From Sorangiineae bacterium NIC37A_2 (lineage in GTDB: Bacteria; Myxococcota_A; Polyangia; Polyangiales; Polyangiaceae): a DNA stretch of 64,000 nucleotides. The notes beneath the pieces were generated by a model. It saw only the letters and a program-made list of their open reading frames with translations. It searched no databases and had not been told where the DNA came from. Made by a program: the position numbers and the translations under genes. The first letter of the stretch is position 1; each line of letters opens with the position of its first letter. Where the stretch lies: assembly GCA_002085155.1 (NCBI GenBank), contig NASX01000002.1:83992-147991 (forward strand). Reading direction: 5' to 3'. Positions 40,892 to 61,526 of the stretch are shown piece by piece.

Positions 40892-41785
40892 TCAGAGCAG
40901 GCTCTTCAGTGTCACACCGAGCTCAGCGGGGGTCGGCGCGACCTTCACACCAGCCTTCTCGAGGGCGGCGATCTTCTCAGCGGCAGTTCCCTTACCGCCG
41001 CTGATGATGGCGCCAGCGTGGCCCATGCGCTTGCCGGGAGGAGCGGTGCGTCCGGCAATGAAGCCAGCGACGGGCTTCTTCATGTTCTTCTGGATCCATT
41101 CGGCCGCCAGGATCTCAGCGTTGCCGCCGATTTCACCCATCATGATGACGGCGTCGGTTCCCGGATCTTCATTGAACAGCTTGAGGCAGTCGATGAAGTC
41201 CAGTCCCGCGACGGGGTCACCGCCGATGCCGATGCAGGTGGACTGACCCAGGCCGAGGGCGGTGAGCTGTCCTACTGCCTCGTAGGTGAGCGTGCCGCTC
41301 TTCGAGACAACGCCGATCCGACCGGGCTTGTGGATATGTCCGGGCATGATGCCGATCTTGCACGCGCCGGGCGTGATGATGCCGGGGCAGTTCGGACCGA
41401 TCAGCTTCGCCTTCGAGGTCTCGAGGGCGCGGCGGACGCGGATCATGTCCATGACCGGGATGCCTTCGGTGATGCAGACGATGAGCTCACAACCGGCGTC
41501 CATCGCCTCGAGGATCGCGTCAGCGGCGCCGAGGGGCGGCACGAAGATGCAGCTCGTGTTGGCGCCAGCCTTCTGGACCGCTTCGGCGACCGTGTCGAAG
41601 ACCGGCACGCGCACGGTGTCTCCGCTCGGTCCCTTGGCCTCGAAGATCTCTCCACCACGATTCGGGGTGCAACCGGCGACCACGTCGGTTCCGTAAGCGA
41701 TGCACTGCGAGGCATGGAAGGAGCCGGCGGAGCCGGTGATGCCCTGGAAGACTACTTTGGTTTCTTTCCCTACTAGTACGCTCAT
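40892..41785 (-). CDS. sucD: Succinyl-CoA ligase, alpha subunit
   Basis: SucD forms succinyl-CoA from succinate with SucC, making ATP or GTP in the reverse, normal TCA direction. This 297-residue subunit has the CoA-binding N-terminal domain ([20 protein letters not shown]) and the phosphohistidine H256 in KRMGHAGAI. The [11 protein letters not shown] and [20 protein letters not shown] blocks are conserved. The start is ATG at 41785, 21 bp after sucC. The gene is the last of mdh-sucC-sucD and is followed by a hairpin. Confidence 0.97.
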
Positions 41786-41806
41786 TTTAGCCTTCGTCCT
41801 CGCCGC

Positions 41807-43003
41807 TTACGCATTCTTTACGGCTTGCACGATCTTCTGTGCACCGTCGCCCATGTTATCGGCTGCCTGGATGGCGAGGCCGCTCGTCTCCAGGATCTTC
41901 TTACCCGCCTCGACGTTCGTGCCCTCTAGGCGGACCACGAGCGGCACGCGGAGTCCGAGCTCCTTTGTCGCCGCGACCACACCTTCAGCGATCACGTCGC
42001 ACTTCATGATGCCGCCGAAGATGTTCACGAAGATGCCCTTCACCTTGTCGGAGGAGAGGATCATCTTGAACGCCTTGGTGACCTGTTCCTTGTTGGCGCC
42101 GCCGCCCACATCCAGGAAGTTGGCAGGCTCGCCCCCGTAGTGTTTGATGATGTCCATCGTGCTCATCGCGAGCCCTGCGCCGTTGACGAGGCAGCCGATA
42201 TTGCCGCCGAGGGACACGTAAGACAGACCGACCTGCTTTGCCTCGAGCTCGACCGGATCTTCCTCGTCCTGATCGCGGAGCGCGGCCCACTCGGGATGAC
42301 GCGCTTCCGCGTTTTCGTCGAGGTTCAGCTTGGCGTCGAGGGCGACCACGTCTCCGCTGCCGGTGATGACGAGCGGGTTGATCTCGCAGAGCGAGCAGTC
42401 CTCTTTTACGAACAGCTCGCCGAGCGAGATGAGCGTCTTCACGAACTGGGCCACGGTCTTCTTCGGGTCTGGCGAGCCTTCGCCGACCTTCAGGCCGTAC
42501 GCGATCTTACGCGCCTGGAAGGGCGCCAAGCCAAGCAGCGGATCAAGGTGCTCGGTCAAGATTTTTTCAGGGGTCGTCTCAGCAACATGCTCGATCTCGA
42601 CGCCGCCTTCCGTGGAGGCCATCAGGGCAACACGGCGCGACTCACGATCAACCACCATGCCGACGTAAAGCTCACGCTTGATGTCCTGCCCCTGCTCGAT
42701 GTAGATCCGGCGCACCTTCTGGCCCTCGGGGCCAGTCTGGTGTGTCACGAGCTGCATGCCGAGGATCTTCTCGGCCTGCTCTTTCGCAGCGGCTACACCC
42801 TTGGCGACCTTGACGCCGCCGCCCTTGCCGCGACCACCCGCGTGGATCTGAGCCTTGACGACGACCACTTCGCTCTTCGTCTCTTCGATGAGACGAGCCG
42901 CGGCGGCCTCGGCCTCAGCGACCGTAAAGGCCGGGTAACCCTTGGAGATCGGGATCCCGTAGCGGGCGAGGATCTGCTTGCCCTGATATTCGTGAATGTT
43001 CAT
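41807..43003 (-). CDS. sucC: Succinyl-CoA ligase, beta subunit
   Basis: A 398-residue ATP-grasp subunit that holds the nucleotide and succinate sites. The opening [18 protein letters not shown] is typical. Conserved blocks include [20 protein letters not shown] (nucleotide-binding Lys/Gly loop), [23 protein letters not shown] and the C-terminal [18 protein letters not shown] with [14 protein letters not shown]. The start is ATG at 43003, 10 bp after mdh. Codon use looks strongly biased, as expected for a highly expressed TCA gene. Confidence 0.97.
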
Positions 43004-44131: not shown

Positions 44132-44689
44132 TCAGGAGTCGACCTTGGTATGACAACCGAAACAGCCGAAACCTTGGTGCGTCTCGGGATCGTAGACAGG
44201 CTCACCGAGCAGCTTGGCCATCGTCGGCACCACGTGCTCCATCATGAACTTCGTTCCGTTCGGGTGCTCCTTCAGCTCATCAGCGAAGCCATCGGAAGGA
44301 TCGAGCTTCAAGAGCTCGGGGCTCGGCATCTCGAAGTTTCCTTGAGCTGCGCGTGAGCCATGACAGGTCTTACAGCTGAAGTCTTTCGCGCTCTTGCGGT
44401 TGTGCTCTTCGAACAAAGCTTTCATCTCCGGGAGCACGACATTCTTCATGAGACTCATCCGTTCGCCGGGCGTCATGTCGTGGAACGCCTTTCGCTTGGC
44501 GGCGGGCGCTTCGCCTGTGCTCTCCTCTCCGACGCGCTCTGCGGTCACGGAGGGCAACGGCTCCTTCCCCTCGGGTTCGGCTGAGGTCTCACTCGGCGTC
44601 GTCGCCCGATCTCCGGGGGTGACAGTGCAGCCGAGCGCTGCGCCCAGGGCGATGGCGAGCGAACCGAGAACGATAGCGGATTTTTTCAT
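44132..44689 (-). CDS. Diheme cytochrome c lipoprotein
   Basis: A 185-residue exported protein. The signal peptide ends at the lipobox ALGC (C21), then a Glu/Pro-rich linker. Two heme-binding motifs are present: CKTCH (106-110) and CFGCH (176-180), so it is a periplasmic or outer-membrane electron carrier. The region before the first heme (MTPGERMSLMKNVVLPEMKA) recalls the fold of reaction-centre-type cytochrome subunits, where a helix precedes CxxCH, but this is only a resemblance. It stands between a soluble kinase and mdh on the same strand; its redox partner is unknown. Confidence 0.82.
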   Translation of the reverse strand: MKKSAIVLGSLAIALGAALGCTVTPGDRATTPSETSAEPEGKEPLPSVTAERVGEESTGEAPAAKRKAFHDMTPGERMSLMKNVVLPEMKALFEEHNRKSAKDFSCKTCHGSRAAQGNFEMPSPELLKLDPSDGFADELKEHPNGTKFMMEHVVPTMAKLLGEPVYDPETHQGFGCFGCHTKVDS

Positions 44690-54232: not shown

Positions 54233-56533
54233 TTAGGGCCAAGCGGTCGGGACGGCCTCGAAGGTCGCGGTCACGAGCGCGGAGCCATAACAGGTTCCGG
54301 TGAGCGACCAGCCAGCCGTGAAGTTGCTTCCAGAGGTCGAATAGCCAGCGAAGCCAGTGACCTGGTCTGGCTGAAAGGCCTCAGCGACTTCGGTCAGCCC
54401 GATGGGAGTGCCTGAGGCGCCCGGATCGTTGCCTTGAGCTGCCAGGCTGGCCACTGTGAAGCTTCCGGGCGAGCCTACCGTCACCGGGAAACTCACTTCT
54501 CGGGGCGTTCCGCCCATGCAATCGTCCTCCGTGTTGTCGCCTTTCGTCGCGAAGGACGCCTGGTTCACATTTCGAAGTTCGAAGACCGTGACCACTGTTC
54601 CACCCCAAGTGCTTTTCACCGTGATGGTCTTGTTCCCAGCTGCGCCGATGTCCGCATCGGAGACGAACGCGATCTGCGATGCTCCGTTGGTGCCAGGGAT
54701 AGACTCGGAGATGATCGGTGCGATCCCCTCGCCTTGATAGCGAATGGTCGGCGAGCCCATGGAGGCGACGGCGATCACGAGGGCGCGGTTCGCACCGGAG
54801 CCCACGTTGATAGTCACCTCTGCTTGTGCACTTGACATTGCTTTGCCGGTGACCTGTTGGACGATCGTGACGCCCGGCCGGTGCATGCATCCGCTCACCG
54901 GATCGCAGAACGGGTTCGTCCCGCCGCAGGTATCCCCGCACACCTCGCAGTTATTGATGGACTGGCCGAGCCTGACCTCGCAGCCGTTTGTGGCCTTCCC
55001 GTCGCAGTCCGCGTAGCCCGCGTCACAGGCCACGATGCGGCATTCACTGTCCTCGCAGATAGCGTCCTCGACCCTAAGGCTGGCTGTGGTTTCGAGGCCG
55101 ACGCAGCTCACGCCACCGCTGCCCGCGCAGCCGCCGCAGTGCTCCTCGTTGGTGCGAACATCGACTTCGCAGTCGCGGAGATCGGCGTCGCAGTTCGCGA
55201 AGTTCCGGTCGCACTGCTTGATCCCGCAGGATGCGACACCGTCGTTGACCTCACAACTGGGGGTCCCGTTTTGGACGACACAGGTGCCGCCACAGCGGCC
55301 ACAATTCTCCGGGGTCGTCAGACTGTCATTGCAGAGGCCATCGCCATCACAGGCACCGAGTCCAGGGGCTTCAGAACAATCGGTCGTCTCACAGTCGCCG
55401 TCGACGCAGGCGGGGTAGATCCCCATGGCGACGTCGCCTTCGCAGATGTAGGCGTCGTCTTCGTCGCCGCAGCCTCCGCAGTTCCCAGAGTCCTTCCAAA
55501 TGTTGGTTTCGCAGCCGTTCTTGCCCGGATCCTTGTCACAGTCGCGGAAGCCGGGATCGCAGGTGATCCGGCAGGTGCCGCTGACGCAGCTCGCCTCGCC
55601 GTTCTTGTCTGAGCAGGCGACGTCGCAGCTGCCGCAGGTGGCGATGCTGCGCTGGAGATTCGCCTCGCAGCCATTCGCCCATTGACCATCACAGTTAGCG
55701 TACCCGCTGACACAACCATCCGCGCCCGCGCTCGTATCGAATTTGCATTGTCCGGCGTCGCAGAGCGGGGTCACCGTATGGGGGGGATTGCAGACAGCGC
55801 CGCAGGCTCCGCAGTGCTCCGTGCTGGTATTGGTGTTCGTCTCGCAGCCGTTTTTCGCGAGCTCGTCGCAGTCAGAATAGCGCACCGGGCATGTAAGCCG
55901 GCAGCGTTTCTCGTTGACCCCATCGTCCGGATCGTCGTCGACGCAGCGGGCGGTTCCCGTCTCGGGATCGTCGGGCTGCAGGCAGTCACTGTGCGAGCGG
56001 CAGCGTTGACCCGTGTCGCAGGTCGCGCCGCAGATGCTGCCGCCGCAGTCGATGTCCGTCTCACCGCTGTTCTGCTTGTTGTCATTGCAACTCGATTCGA
56101 CGCAGACTCGGCTCCGGCACGCGTTCGTCTCACAATCTTCGTCGACCAGACATCGATCTCCGACGCTGCAGCGCGCCTCGCAGGTCTTGCCACCGCAGTC
56201 CTTGTCGGTCTCGTCCTGATTCTGGGTGTCGTCGCTGCACGTGGGAGCCGCGCAGATCTCGTCGACACAACTATTGTTCTTACAGTCGCGGTTCTCGAGA
56301 CAGCGCTGGCCGATCTCGCAGGGGTCACAGTCGGGGCCCCCGCAATCCCTCGCCGTCTCTCCCCGGTCCGTGACCCCGTTCGTGCAGTGGTCGACGGGGC
56401 GGCCGCCGCCGAGTCCGCCCGAACCACCTCCATCGTCCAGTTTGAACGATGGCGTCAGGCAGGAGGCAGCAAAAAGCGACACCACGCTCAGGGTCGCGAG
56501 CGCCCGGAGGAATCGAAGCTGCGCGTGACTCAT
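54233..56533 (-). CDS. Large Cys-rich modular surface lipoprotein
   Basis: A 766-residue exported protein from ATG 56533. The signal peptide ends at FAASC. Three N-terminal modules follow the pattern 'C.N....GETD.DCGG..C ..C..G.RC....DC....C'. Then come five or more modules of the form 'C..GYADCDG...NGCE......CG.C...C'. The last about 190 residues form a separate beta-rich domain starting VTIVQQVTGKAMSSAQAEVT with GANRALVIAVASMG, which looks like a jelly-roll or Ig-type module. Such disulfide-rich repeats are typical of Polyangiales surface proteins of unknown role. It is convergent with the coiled-coil gene. Confidence 0.82.
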   Translation of the reverse strand: MSHAQLRFLRALATLSVVSLFAASCLTPSFKLDDGGGSGGLGGGRPVDHCTNGVTDRGETARDCGGPDCDPCEIGQRCLENRDCKNNSCVDEICAAPTCSDDTQNQDETDKDCGGKTCEARCSVGDRCLVDEDCETNACRSRVCVESSCNDNKQNSGETDIDCGGSICGATCDTGQRCRSHSDCLQPDDPETGTARCVDDDPDDGVNEKRCRLTCPVRYSDCDELAKNGCETNTNTSTEHCGACGAVCNPPHTVTPLCDAGQCKFDTSAGADGCVSGYANCDGQWANGCEANLQRSIATCGSCDVACSDKNGEASCVSGTCRITCDPGFRDCDKDPGKNGCETNIWKDSGNCGGCGDEDDAYICEGDVAMGIYPACVDGDCETTDCSEAPGLGACDGDGLCNDSLTTPENCGRCGGTCVVQNGTPSCEVNDGVASCGIKQCDRNFANCDADLRDCEVDVRTNEEHCGGCAGSGGVSCVGLETTASLRVEDAICEDSECRIVACDAGYADCDGKATNGCEVRLGQSINNCEVCGDTCGGTNPFCDPVSGCMHRPGVTIVQQVTGKAMSSAQAEVTINVGSGANRALVIAVASMGSPTIRYQGEGIAPIISESIPGTNGASQIAFVSDADIGAAGNKTITVKSTWGGTVVTVFELRNVNQASFATKGDNTEDDCMGGTPREVSFPVTVGSPGSFTVASLAAQGNDPGASGTPIGLTEVAEAFQPDQVTGFAGYSTSGSNFTAGWSLTGTCYGSALVTATFEAVPTAWP

Positions 56534-56751
56534 GACAGGACGCCCGGTGCCACTTTGGACCATGGCACAAACGTAGCACGCCGCAGATGCCCGGAAGAAC
56601 GTCCGGTGAACTCGCTCACAACCGCGGGCAGAGCGTGAGCCCCCGAGCCGGGGAGCCTACCTCCGCAGACCCAATCCAAGTGAAGTAACCACAGAGCTCT
56701 GAGCTCCGTCATTTTCTGTGCGATAAAGCGCGCTTCGTGTAGCCTCATGCT

Positions 56752-58584: not shown

Positions 58585-59874
58585 CTAGCGCGAATCGATG
58601 AAGAGCTGTGTCAAAAACAGCGAGCCGTCTTCGCGCCGAGCAATTGCTACGCCGACTTCGTCCCAGCGTGTGAGCAGCAAGTTCTCGCGGTGGGAAGGGC
58701 TGGCCCAGAGCGCTCGATGGAGTCGTAAGGGTGACGGCGCGAGGGCGACGTTCTCTCCGACGGCTTTGGGGGTGAGGGACGCGGCGCGCACCCGATCCTC
58801 GGGAGTACCGTCTCCGCTCGTGTGGCTGATGCGCCCTTCCGCGAGCATGCGCTCCGAGTGGGCCCGAGCGATGCGATCGAGGGTTTTGTTGCGGCGCAGA
58901 GGGCTCTGGCCGAGCGCGCTGCGCGCCCCATTGAGGAGGGCAAAGATGGCTTCTTCAGGGTCCTGGTCGGGATCGTACTGGTCTTCGCCGGGGACCTTTG
59001 CCTCCTTCGGTTCGCTCGGCGGGTCTTGTCCGACGGCGATGAGCGCGAAGGCGACCGGCCTCGGATCGCCGGAGGCTCGAGCCATGACCTGAACTGTCCA
59101 GAGACCTCGGGACAAGAGCGGGAGCTTGCCGGTGCCGATTGAGTCGCGGATGGTGAGCTTGATGTGACGAGCGCGCCCTTCCGGGGAGAGCAATACGAGC
59201 TCGGCGCTGTCGACGTCGCCCAGGAAGCGGAGCTGAACTTCCGGCCTGTCGTCTTCCTCGATACGGGTCAAAATGGGCGCGACGTGCGCGAGCAAGTCGG
59301 CTCGAAGCACGACGACACGCTCAAGTCCGTCCGTCGTCTCGGCGCGCCCAGCGCCGCACCAATATTCGCCGCGGGGCTTTTTCCCTCGGGCCCAGGCGCG
59401 AAATGGCTCCGTGAGCTCCTTGAGATCCATGTTGGGGCTCATCTCGGCGACCCAGACCTCCGGTGTGGTGGCAGCGACCCCCCGCTTTCGCAAGAGGAAG
59501 ACGAGTAGGTCGAGATCAGGCGAGCTCGGCTCGGCGAAGCCGTGGCGCGCGAATTCGCTGGCCACTTCGTGGAGTCCCATGTCTCCACGGCCGCACTCGT
59601 CTGCGAGTTCGCCGAGCTCGTGCTCGGGAACAGAGCCGGGTTCGGGAGAAGAGGTCCACTTTGCCCAGGTGAATCCGTCCAAGACAAAGCGAGGGGATTC
59701 TTCCGCCGTCGTGGGAGCTTGGGGTTTCGTCTGGGCGTCGGGACGTACCGACGGCGAGCGAGCGCACGCGAGCAAGAGGGCGCTCAAGAAGGCGAGAAAG
59801 AGGAGACCAGGTGCGCGGCGCAATCGCGCCGGACCGCCCTTCGGGGGCGGGGCCTGGGTGTGGTCGTCAGACAT
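58585..59874 (-). CDS. CAP/SCP-domain lipoprotein
   Basis: A 429-residue lipoprotein; the signal peptide ends at LLLAC. Residues about 45-290 form an unrecognised N-terminal domain rich in Glu/Asp and Arg. Residues about 305-428 are a CAP (cysteine-rich secretory protein, PR-1) domain: FALLNGARSALGQSPLRRNK, HSERMLAEGRISHTSGDG, VGENVALAPSPLRLH, ASPSHRENLLLTRWDEVGVA. CAP proteins occur in secreted defence and adhesion roles; the bacterial substrate is unknown. The start is ATG at 59874, only 8 bp from the start of the divergent fusion gene, so at least one promoter must lie inside the other gene. Confidence 0.85.
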   Translation of the reverse strand: MSDDHTQAPPPKGGPARLRRAPGLLFLAFLSALLLACARSPSVRPDAQTKPQAPTTAEESPRFVLDGFTWAKWTSSPEPGSVPEHELGELADECGRGDMGLHEVASEFARHGFAEPSSPDLDLLVFLLRKRGVAATTPEVWVAEMSPNMDLKELTEPFRAWARGKKPRGEYWCGAGRAETTDGLERVVVLRADLLAHVAPILTRIEEDDRPEVQLRFLGDVDSAELVLLSPEGRARHIKLTIRDSIGTGKLPLLSRGLWTVQVMARASGDPRPVAFALIAVGQDPPSEPKEAKVPGEDQYDPDQDPEEAIFALLNGARSALGQSPLRRNKTLDRIARAHSERMLAEGRISHTSGDGTPEDRVRAASLTPKAVGENVALAPSPLRLHRALWASPSHRENLLLTRWDEVGVAIARREDGSLFLTQLFIDSR

Positions 59875-59882
59875 GCTATGCC

Positions 59883-61526
59883 ATGATAACCGCTCGCATG
59901 GATCGTCGTCTCCCGGCTCTCCTTTTCGCTACGCTGCTCGGCATTGGCGGCAGCTTGGCCTTCGCCTCCTGTTGCGATTACGGCAAGGGAGCGAGCAGCG
60001 TGGAGACGGCGGCCCGTCCCACGCTCCGGATTTATGCGCTCGGCGCGGCGGCGGGGGCGATCGAGCCCTGCGGCTGCGTGGAGGATATGCTGGGCGGCGT
60101 CGATCACTTGGCGGCGCTTTTGACCGACGAGAAGAAAGTAGCGCCGGCGTCGCTCTTGCTTTCGGCCGGGCCCATGTTCTTCTCTGACCCGACTGTGCCT
60201 GAGGAGCAGCGGGCTCAGGCGATCATGAAGGCGGAGACTATGGCCGAGGCTCTCGGGATTATGGGCCTTACGGCCTTCGCACCTGGGGTCAACGATTTTG
60301 CTCTGGGCCCCCAGGAGTTCGAACGGTTCACGCGTCTGGCCAAGAGCGCTCCCCTTGCCGCAAACCACGCGGGGAGGCAGGGCATCAAGGCACACTCGAT
60401 CGTCGAAGCGGGAGGCCTGAAGGTGGGTCTCGTTGGTGGCGCTGATCTTTCGGAGGCCAAGGCCCTCGGCGCGGAGTCGAACGAGCTGCTTGCGAGTCTC
60501 AAGAGTGCCGTCGAGGCCGCTCAGAAGGAAGGCGCACAGCTCGTGGTGGCATTGCTCGCGCTGCCTCGGGGACCGGCGCTCAGGCTCATTGAGCAGCTCG
60601 ACGCGGTCGACGTTGCGATCGTCGGCAAGAACATCGAAGCCGGAGAAAATAACGATCCGCCGTTTCCGCCTGAGCTGGTCGGCCGGACCCTGGTCGTTCA
60701 AGCTCCCAACCACGTCCAGGGCGCTTCAGTGATCGATTTGTTTGTACCCGAGCCCGGAAGTGGTCTCCAAGACGGCAGTGGTCTCGAGAAGGAGGCGGAG
60801 CTAGCGCGCGCTCGGGAGCGGCTCGAGTCCCTCTCCGAACGTCTCAAGAGCGCAGAGGCGCCTGGCTCCGGCGTCGACGCGGAGGATATCGCGAGCCTCC
60901 GTCGGGAGGTTTCGAGCCTCTCGGACAAGGTCAAGGAGCTCGAGGCGCGTCCGGTTGCGACGCCGAGCGGGAATCACTTCAAGTACGCCTACGTCGAGAT
61001 CCGAGAGAAACTCGGAGCTTCGAAGGTCGTCGAACAGAAGCTTTCAGACTATTACCAGCGGGTCAACGAGCACAACAAGGTTGCCTTCGCAGACCGTCGT
61101 CCGGCTCCCGTAGAGCCGGGGCAAGCGAGCTACGTGGGCGTTCAAGCTTGCGTCGACTGCCACCAGGAGGAGTACGACTTCTGGAAAACAACGCGCCACT
61201 CACACGCTTACCGGACGCTGGTGGACGTGCATAAGGAATACAACCTTGACTGCGTTTCGTGTCACGTGACTGGTTATGAGCGACCGGGCGGCTCCACCGT
61301 GACGCACGTTGAGAAGCTCGACGCGGTCCAGTGTGAGGTTTGTCACGGCCCGGGCTCGCTCCACCTGGCCTCGCCCAGCGATCCGAAGTTGATTGATATG
61401 CCTCGCACCGATCTGTGTGCAGACTCCTGTCACCACCCGCCCCACGTGAAGCCGGATTGGAAGGTGTCCGACGCTTGGCCGAAAATTCTCGGTCCCGGGC
61501 ACGGACTGCCGAACAGCGCTCCCTAG
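59883..61526 (+). CDS. Degenerate metallophosphoesterase-multiheme cytochrome lipoprotein
   Basis: A 547-residue exported protein; ATG 59883 (ATG 59898 possible), lipobox FASC. Residues about 45-285 resemble the UshA/5'-nucleotidase phosphoesterase fold, with the subfamily motif EPCGCVEDMLGGVDHLAALL. The metal-binding D/H/N residues of the catalytic core are missing or replaced: VNDFALG stands where the NHE motif would be, and LSAGPMF where the GD motif would be. A coiled coil (about 300-365) joins it to a C-terminal cytochrome. The heme motifs are CVDCH (423-427), CVSCH (457-461) and CEVCH (484-488), plus a CX3CH-type CADSCH (512-517). Function is unknown; electron transfer is the likely role. 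Confidence 0.85.
   Translation: MITARMDRRLPALLFATLLGIGGSLAFASCCDYGKGASSVETAARPTLRIYALGAAAGAIEPCGCVEDMLGGVDHLAALLTDEKKVAPASLLLSAGPMFFSDPTVPEEQRAQAIMKAETMAEALGIMGLTAFAPGVNDFALGPQEFERFTRLAKSAPLAANHAGRQGIKAHSIVEAGGLKVGLVGGADLSEAKALGAESNELLASLKSAVEAAQKEGAQLVVALLALPRGPALRLIEQLDAVDVAIVGKNIEAGENNDPPFPPELVGRTLVVQAPNHVQGASVIDLFVPEPGSGLQDGSGLEKEAELARARERLESLSERLKSAEAPGSGVDAEDIASLRREVSSLSDKVKELEARPVATPSGNHFKYAYVEIREKLGASKVVEQKLSDYYQRVNEHNKVAFADRRPAPVEPGQASYVGVQACVDCHQEEYDFWKTTRHSHAYRTLVDVHKEYNLDCVSCHVTGYERPGGSTVTHVEKLDAVQCEVCHGPGSLHLASPSDPKLIDMPRTDLCADSCHHPPHVKPDWKVSDAWPKILGPGHGLPNSAP

Follow-up and report, generated by a model that had tools for sequence, protein, structure and literature searches.

A probable lipoprotein of Myxococcota joins an UshA-type domain, with a Cys-Gly-Cys pair and no metal site, to a tetraheme cytochrome c554-like domain

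The stretch of DNA that we analysed, hereafter the window, is 64,000 nucleotides long and belongs to a genome of 5.0 Mb that is 98% complete and whose closest named relatives, Sorangium cellulosum among them, are Polyangiaceae-type Myxococcota. At positions 59883-61526 of the forward strand lies a coding sequence for a protein of 547 amino acids, composed of an UshA-like domain, a helical hairpin and a tetraheme cytochrome. A preliminary description had reported this open reading frame with a set of short motifs, and we found all of them in place. An alternative start at M6 (position 59898, forward strand) gives a signal peptide that is more typical than the one obtained with the annotated start. 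This signal peptide (59898-59975, forward strand) ends in a probable lipobox, FASCC, with the cysteines C30 and C31. Of the 30 best sequences in our alignments (hereafter the close homologues), 29 have a Cys at the position of C31, as do 103 of the 119 homologues with hemes. Since this conserved Cys follows a hydrophobic stretch, the protein is probably a membrane-anchored lipoprotein of the cell envelope, as had been proposed. The divergent neighbour (58585-59874, reverse strand) encodes a CAP-domain lipoprotein (PF00188, E 3.6e-11), so this part of the preliminary description also stands. A PHROGs search with the 547-residue protein returned no match.

The N-terminal half, from approximately residue 46 to 290 (60018-60752, forward strand, as are all following features of the gene), is a domain of the UshA/5'-nucleotidase/SoxB type without the metal site. 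We modelled the whole protein with alignment-based AlphaFold2 (pLDDT 89, pTM 0.86), and the predicted fold of this domain matches 5'-nucleotidases, CD73, SoxB and UshA with Z scores of 27.3 to 28.9 (28.9 to the 5'-nucleotidase 2z1a, 27.8 to SoxB and approximately 27.5 to UshA). These alignments start at residues 42-46 and mostly have an rmsd of 2.2-3.0 over about 270 residues. A sequence search with the family profile retrieves these proteins as well (2z1a, E 3.9e-24), and both results support the UshA-like scaffold assigned earlier.

To compare the metal site, we aligned the protein to UshA of E. coli K-12, whose metal ligands we take to be D41, H43, D84, N116, H217, H252 and Q254 and whose catalytic residues we take to be H117 and D120. 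None of these nine residues is retained. Metal motif I is degenerate, with A55 and A57 standing for D41 and H43 (60045-60053), also in the profile alignment to 2z1a. P97, within LSAGPMF (residues 93-99), stands for the bridging ligand D84 (60171-60173), while V136, N137 and A140, within VNDFALG (136-142), stand for N116, H117 and D120 (60288-60302). A226 takes the place of H217 (60558-60560), and K249 and I251 that of H252 and Q254 (60627-60635). The replacement of metal-binding residues, first described at VNDFALG and LSAGPMF, is thus complete with respect to UshA. It is also common to the relatives: among 128 homologues, at most four of six ligands are retained, 51 retain none at all, and N116 and D120 are kept in none. 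Since no homologue out of 128 has a full site, the absence of this site is, as read from the alignments, a trait of the whole family. Partial remnants are detectable in distant members, such as DVHG in L054, L162, L164 and L170. At E-values up to 1 there was no Pfam match to the 5'-nucleotidase C-terminal domain either, and a cytochrome stands in place of this substrate-binding domain.

The two halves were said to be joined by a coiled coil. The secondary structure of the model places helices there, predicted to form a hairpin (helices 301-324 and 333-355; 60783-60947). The C-terminal part, residues 405-547 (61095-61523), is a tetraheme cytochrome c554-like domain, with a score of 55.2 bits to the Pfam family Cytochrome_C554 (PF13435, E 1.4e-14) above the gathering threshold of 20.8. 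Modelled alone, these 143 residues reach a pLDDT of 91 and match cytochrome c554 (1ft6) over the whole length (Z 12.7, rmsd 2.5, 133 residues), while the next matches outside c554 have Z scores of 7.0 and below. All four heme motifs listed in the preliminary description are present, namely CVDCH (heme 1, residues 423-427, 61149-61163), CVSCH (heme 2, 457-461, 61251-61265), CEVCH (heme 3, 484-488, 61332-61346) and CADSCH (heme 4, 512-517, 61416-61433). The first three are invariant in the homologues, and none of the 30 close homologues deviates at any of the eight heme cysteines or at the heme histidines. At heme 4, the CX3CH spacing is found in 28 of 119 homologues and other forms in the remaining 91. 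In Polyangiales, CX2CH and CX3CH alternate at this site, offering a natural series on the effect of one extra residue on heme attachment.

Four further histidines are probable distal heme ligands. H439 (61197-61199) and H494 (61362-61364) are conserved in 119 of 119 homologues, H521 (61443-61445) in 84 and H540 (61500-61502) in 85, and all four are invariant in the 30 close homologues. Their number matches that of the four hemes, each predicted to be bis-His. The genome contains genes for cytochrome c assembly. It also has more multiheme genes with c554-type stretches, on contigs C111 (approximately 41557-42600) and C109 (59517-60191), whose products are possible electron partners. We also observed within the window a short reading frame (44132-44689, reverse strand) for a probable lipoprotein that ends in CFGCHTKVDS and has a single CXXCH at its C-terminus.

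The N-terminal domain carries a predicted redox motif, EPCGC, at residues 61-65 (60063-60077), followed by LGG at residues 70-72. The Cys pair sits in the loop that directly follows metal motif I; the model has lower confidence for residues 61-70 (pLDDT 70). EPCGC had been taken for part of the UshA scaffold, and this has to be corrected, because UshA does not have it and the motif is the signature of the (seleno)protein family NF041198. C63, C65, G71 and G72 are identical in 30 of 30 close homologues, and G58, G71, G72 and G96 are invariant across the homologues. The pair C63/C65 is more conserved than the remainder of the N-terminal domain and comprises its only invariant reactive residues. 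In a scan of genomes, P-C-G followed by Cys or selenocysteine (Sec) was kept in all 79 loci that covered the motif. The loci missed by the motif filter that we used for extraction also have PCGC or PCGU, mostly with LGD for LGG, and therefore the conservation of C63 and of C65 or Sec is not an artifact of the filter.

The second Cys codon of the motif (TGC, 60075-60077) aligns with an in-frame TGA in part of the relatives, and every Sec homologue that we translated has TGA exactly there (EPCGU). We counted 31 heme-bearing and 9 heme-less relatives with Sec at this position. Nearly all top matches of a phylum-wide search with NF041198 had exactly one in-frame TGA, and the scan of named genomes returned 12 Sec members, some at loci shared with the phylum-wide set. 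In 39 of 40 Sec genes, compared to 4 of 88 Cys genes, the pentamer GGTCT lies exactly 18 nt downstream of this codon (nominal binomial P-value 1e-31, ignoring the relatedness of the genes), and GGT accounts for only 15% of the other Gly codons in the same genes. The model of the bacterial SECIS element has a spacing of 16-37 nt and a G[G/U] loop (PMC13188914). GGTCT agrees with it in both respects and thus probably represents the SECIS loop. Folding energy alone gave no signal for a SECIS element, either against shuffled sequences or between Sec and Cys genes (z around -0.2 in both). SelB scored above the cut-off in 11 of the 13 Sec genomes tested and tRNA-Sec in 7; several of the other 6 are incomplete drafts. 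Furthermore, L155 and L162, two Cys members that are nested within the Sec part of the tree, retain a remnant of GGTCT and are apparently recent Sec-to-Cys replacements. The placement of GGTCT, the presence of SelB and tRNA-Sec and the remnant in nested Cys members indicate that, at the DNA level, TGA in the EPCGU relatives encodes selenocysteine. L162 comes from the cable bacterium Candidatus Electronema aureum, where the protein also has the UshA-tetraheme fusion.

The protein in the window is the Cys form, as far as its gene and genome tell, since its codon is TGC and the searches of its genome gave no match to SelA and no score above the cut-off for SelB or tRNA-Sec. The tree of the 119 heme-bearing homologues separates a Cys side (85 sequences) from a mainly Sec side (31 Sec and 3 Cys). 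It requires at least 3-4 changes between the two residues, implying that Sec and Cys interchange at the second position. We considered recoding also for the in-frame stops of three close relatives (L018, L020 and L031) and rejected it because all close relatives carry Cys; the stops of L018 and L020 are located at the C-terminus. The heme-less UshA-like class with PCGU (L173-L181) comes from other Myxococcota, and one of its members, L174, has PSGU. This suggests that Sec, or the second Cys, is the more essential residue of the pair. The related L182 and L183 carry EDCGC, and L183 keeps NVHG.

Homologues occur in 49 of 59 related genomes and are mostly full length. The UshA-tetraheme architecture is found in more than 100 genomes of Myxococcota and in some Desulfobacterota, and hence the fusion is not peculiar to the 547-residue protein. 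The homologue from a record labelled Comamonas sp. KCTC 72670 (L138) groups inside Myxococcus in the tree, and this record is probably mislabelled or contaminated. When we compared 20 regions, we found no conserved gene neighbour. Among 19 genomes examined, 3 other close ones have a CAP homologue in the vicinity of the gene, and an OmpA protein is found there in close relatives only. We rejected an operon with the CAP gene because the two show merely loose proximity in few close genera, and the CAP neighbour is probably not a functional part. TsaD, RsmA, RecN and others near the genes of the Sec lineages, which we named by eye from sequence, were rejected as partners because they are housekeeping genes. 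Elsewhere in the window (54233-56563, reverse strand), a 776-residue Cys-rich protein has repeated CG.C-type units and only a sub-threshold Pfam match.

A passage of PMC1794560 places selenocysteine in the active sites of oxidoreductases. Given that Sec, typical of redox active sites, occurs in the relatives, the N-terminal domain is more likely to have been repurposed for redox chemistry than to be inert, and on balance we lean towards a redox role. With about the same modest preference, we propose that the protein is a thiol oxidoreductase, and probably a lipoprotein, in which the CxC pair has taken the place of the metal site and electrons pass between this pair and four bis-His hemes. A former metallophosphoesterase domain of the UshA/SoxB type would have lost its metal ligands, and the Cys-Gly-Cys pair after motif I would have taken over. 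The pair would react with a thiol, a disulfide, or a sulfur or selenium compound, either a substrate or part of a partner protein, and exchange electrons with the tetraheme c554-like domain, which may in turn exchange them with other electron carriers of the envelope. The heme fusion, the spread in Myxococcota and the fact that Cys or Sec is retained where the metal site is lost lead to a wider hypothesis, according to which a phosphoesterase fold became a heme-linked thiol or selenol oxidoreductase where CxC or CxU replaces the metal site, with direct electron exchange between this pair and the fused tetraheme domain. We regard this as tentative and somewhat more doubtful than probable. The existence of heme-less relatives with PCGU indicates that the redox partner need not be a heme in every case. 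If true, the hypothesis would define a class of envelope redox enzymes, distinct from thioredoxins, that is widespread in Myxococcota. The Cys form would be the simpler test case, as it can be expressed without selenium machinery.

The preliminary description had seen in the dead phosphoesterase a binding platform. In the form that we considered, the domain only binds a ligand or partner, the hemes carry electrons and EPCGC would form a structural disulfide. The retention of the fold after the loss of every metal ligand and catalytic residue fits, and the loss of the site is indeed what we found. The restriction to a mere platform is not supported, because the EPCGC pair is invariant beyond the rest of its domain and the occurrence of Sec at the second Cys, in heme-bearing and heme-less relatives alike, is difficult to reconcile with a structural disulfide. 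We therefore consider a platform unlikely. The conserved residues could instead handle a metal or metalloid, with C63 and C65 or Sec binding a soft metal, or a selenium or sulfur species, in the old active-site region and the hemes oxidising or reducing it. CxC and CxU pairs can bind soft metals, and the four invariant glycines shape the loop region. However, the N-terminal domain has no third invariant Cys or His across the homologue set, and no gene for metal transport or resistance is conserved next to the gene in the regions compared, which makes such handling rather improbable.

A further explanation is SoxB-like chemistry on sulfane sulfur, either protein-bound or in small molecules, with the tetraheme domain acting as the Sox cytochrome. 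SoxB, an enzyme that acts on cysteine-bound sulfur, ranks among the closest fold matches, and these include 4uwq, a disulfide-linked complex of SoxB and SoxYZ. SoxB needs its own metal site, however, which is absent here, and we noticed no sox genes in the compared neighbourhoods, so that we give this explanation little credence. Finally, despite the close fold match to a 5'-nucleotidase, residual phosphoesterase activity through a non-standard site is very improbable with all ligands and both catalytic residues replaced and a cytochrome where the C-terminal substrate domain would be.

The preferred reading, a thiol oxidoreductase coupled to hemes, can be set against the known systems that the protein resembles. 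NF041198 is the NCBIfam model UshA_like_PCGU ('UshA-like (seleno)protein'), corresponding to the COG0737 CxU selenoprotein of Zhang and Gladyshev 2008 (PMC2398784). That paper reported UshA-like CxU and noted it as exceptional, the other major selenoprotein families having Cys-based redox motifs; UshA-like CxU is also listed in reviews of 2022 and 2026. In the open-access literature we found no paper on the UshA-heme fusion or on the function of UshA-like CxU selenoproteins. Since the NF041198 model covers the heme part, the architecture is already implicit in the database. Our protein matches it at residues 57-521 (E 3.3e-69), and the alignment extends over model positions 33-512 of 519, that is, over the two-part, full-length architecture. 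The score of 233.8 bits (233.7 in the genome search) lies below the curated cut-off of 275, which 17 of 282 genomes of the phylum reached or exceeded, nearly all with an in-frame TGA. The protein thus resembles NF041198 in length, architecture, PCG followed by Cys or Sec, lost metal site and four hemes, but has Cys instead of Sec, a score below the cut-off and CX3CH at heme 4.

The fold of the N-terminal domain is shared with the UshA/CD73/SoxB superfamily at Z scores of 27-29. In contrast to these enzymes, the protein has no metal ligands, no catalytic dyad and no 5'-nucleotidase C-terminal domain, and possesses an extra loop with EPCGC. Similarly, it resembles cytochrome c554 (Nitrosomonas CycA, 1ft6/1bvb) in its fold over the whole chain and in the four heme motifs, but its cytochrome is shorter (143 compared to approximately 210 residues), is fused C-terminally to another domain and has CX3CH at heme 4. 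The equivalog model of cytochrome c-550 CycA (NF043010) gives 41.6 bits against a cut-off of 400. The UshA-like selenoprotein family 2 (NF049981), listed with CxxU in a review table (PMC13188914), also combines an UshA-like domain with Sec, but its model is shorter, with 262 positions, and had no match in the window's genome at E 0.001. Taken by its sequence, the protein is a Cys-form relative just outside NF041198, and the functional reading would be the new part.
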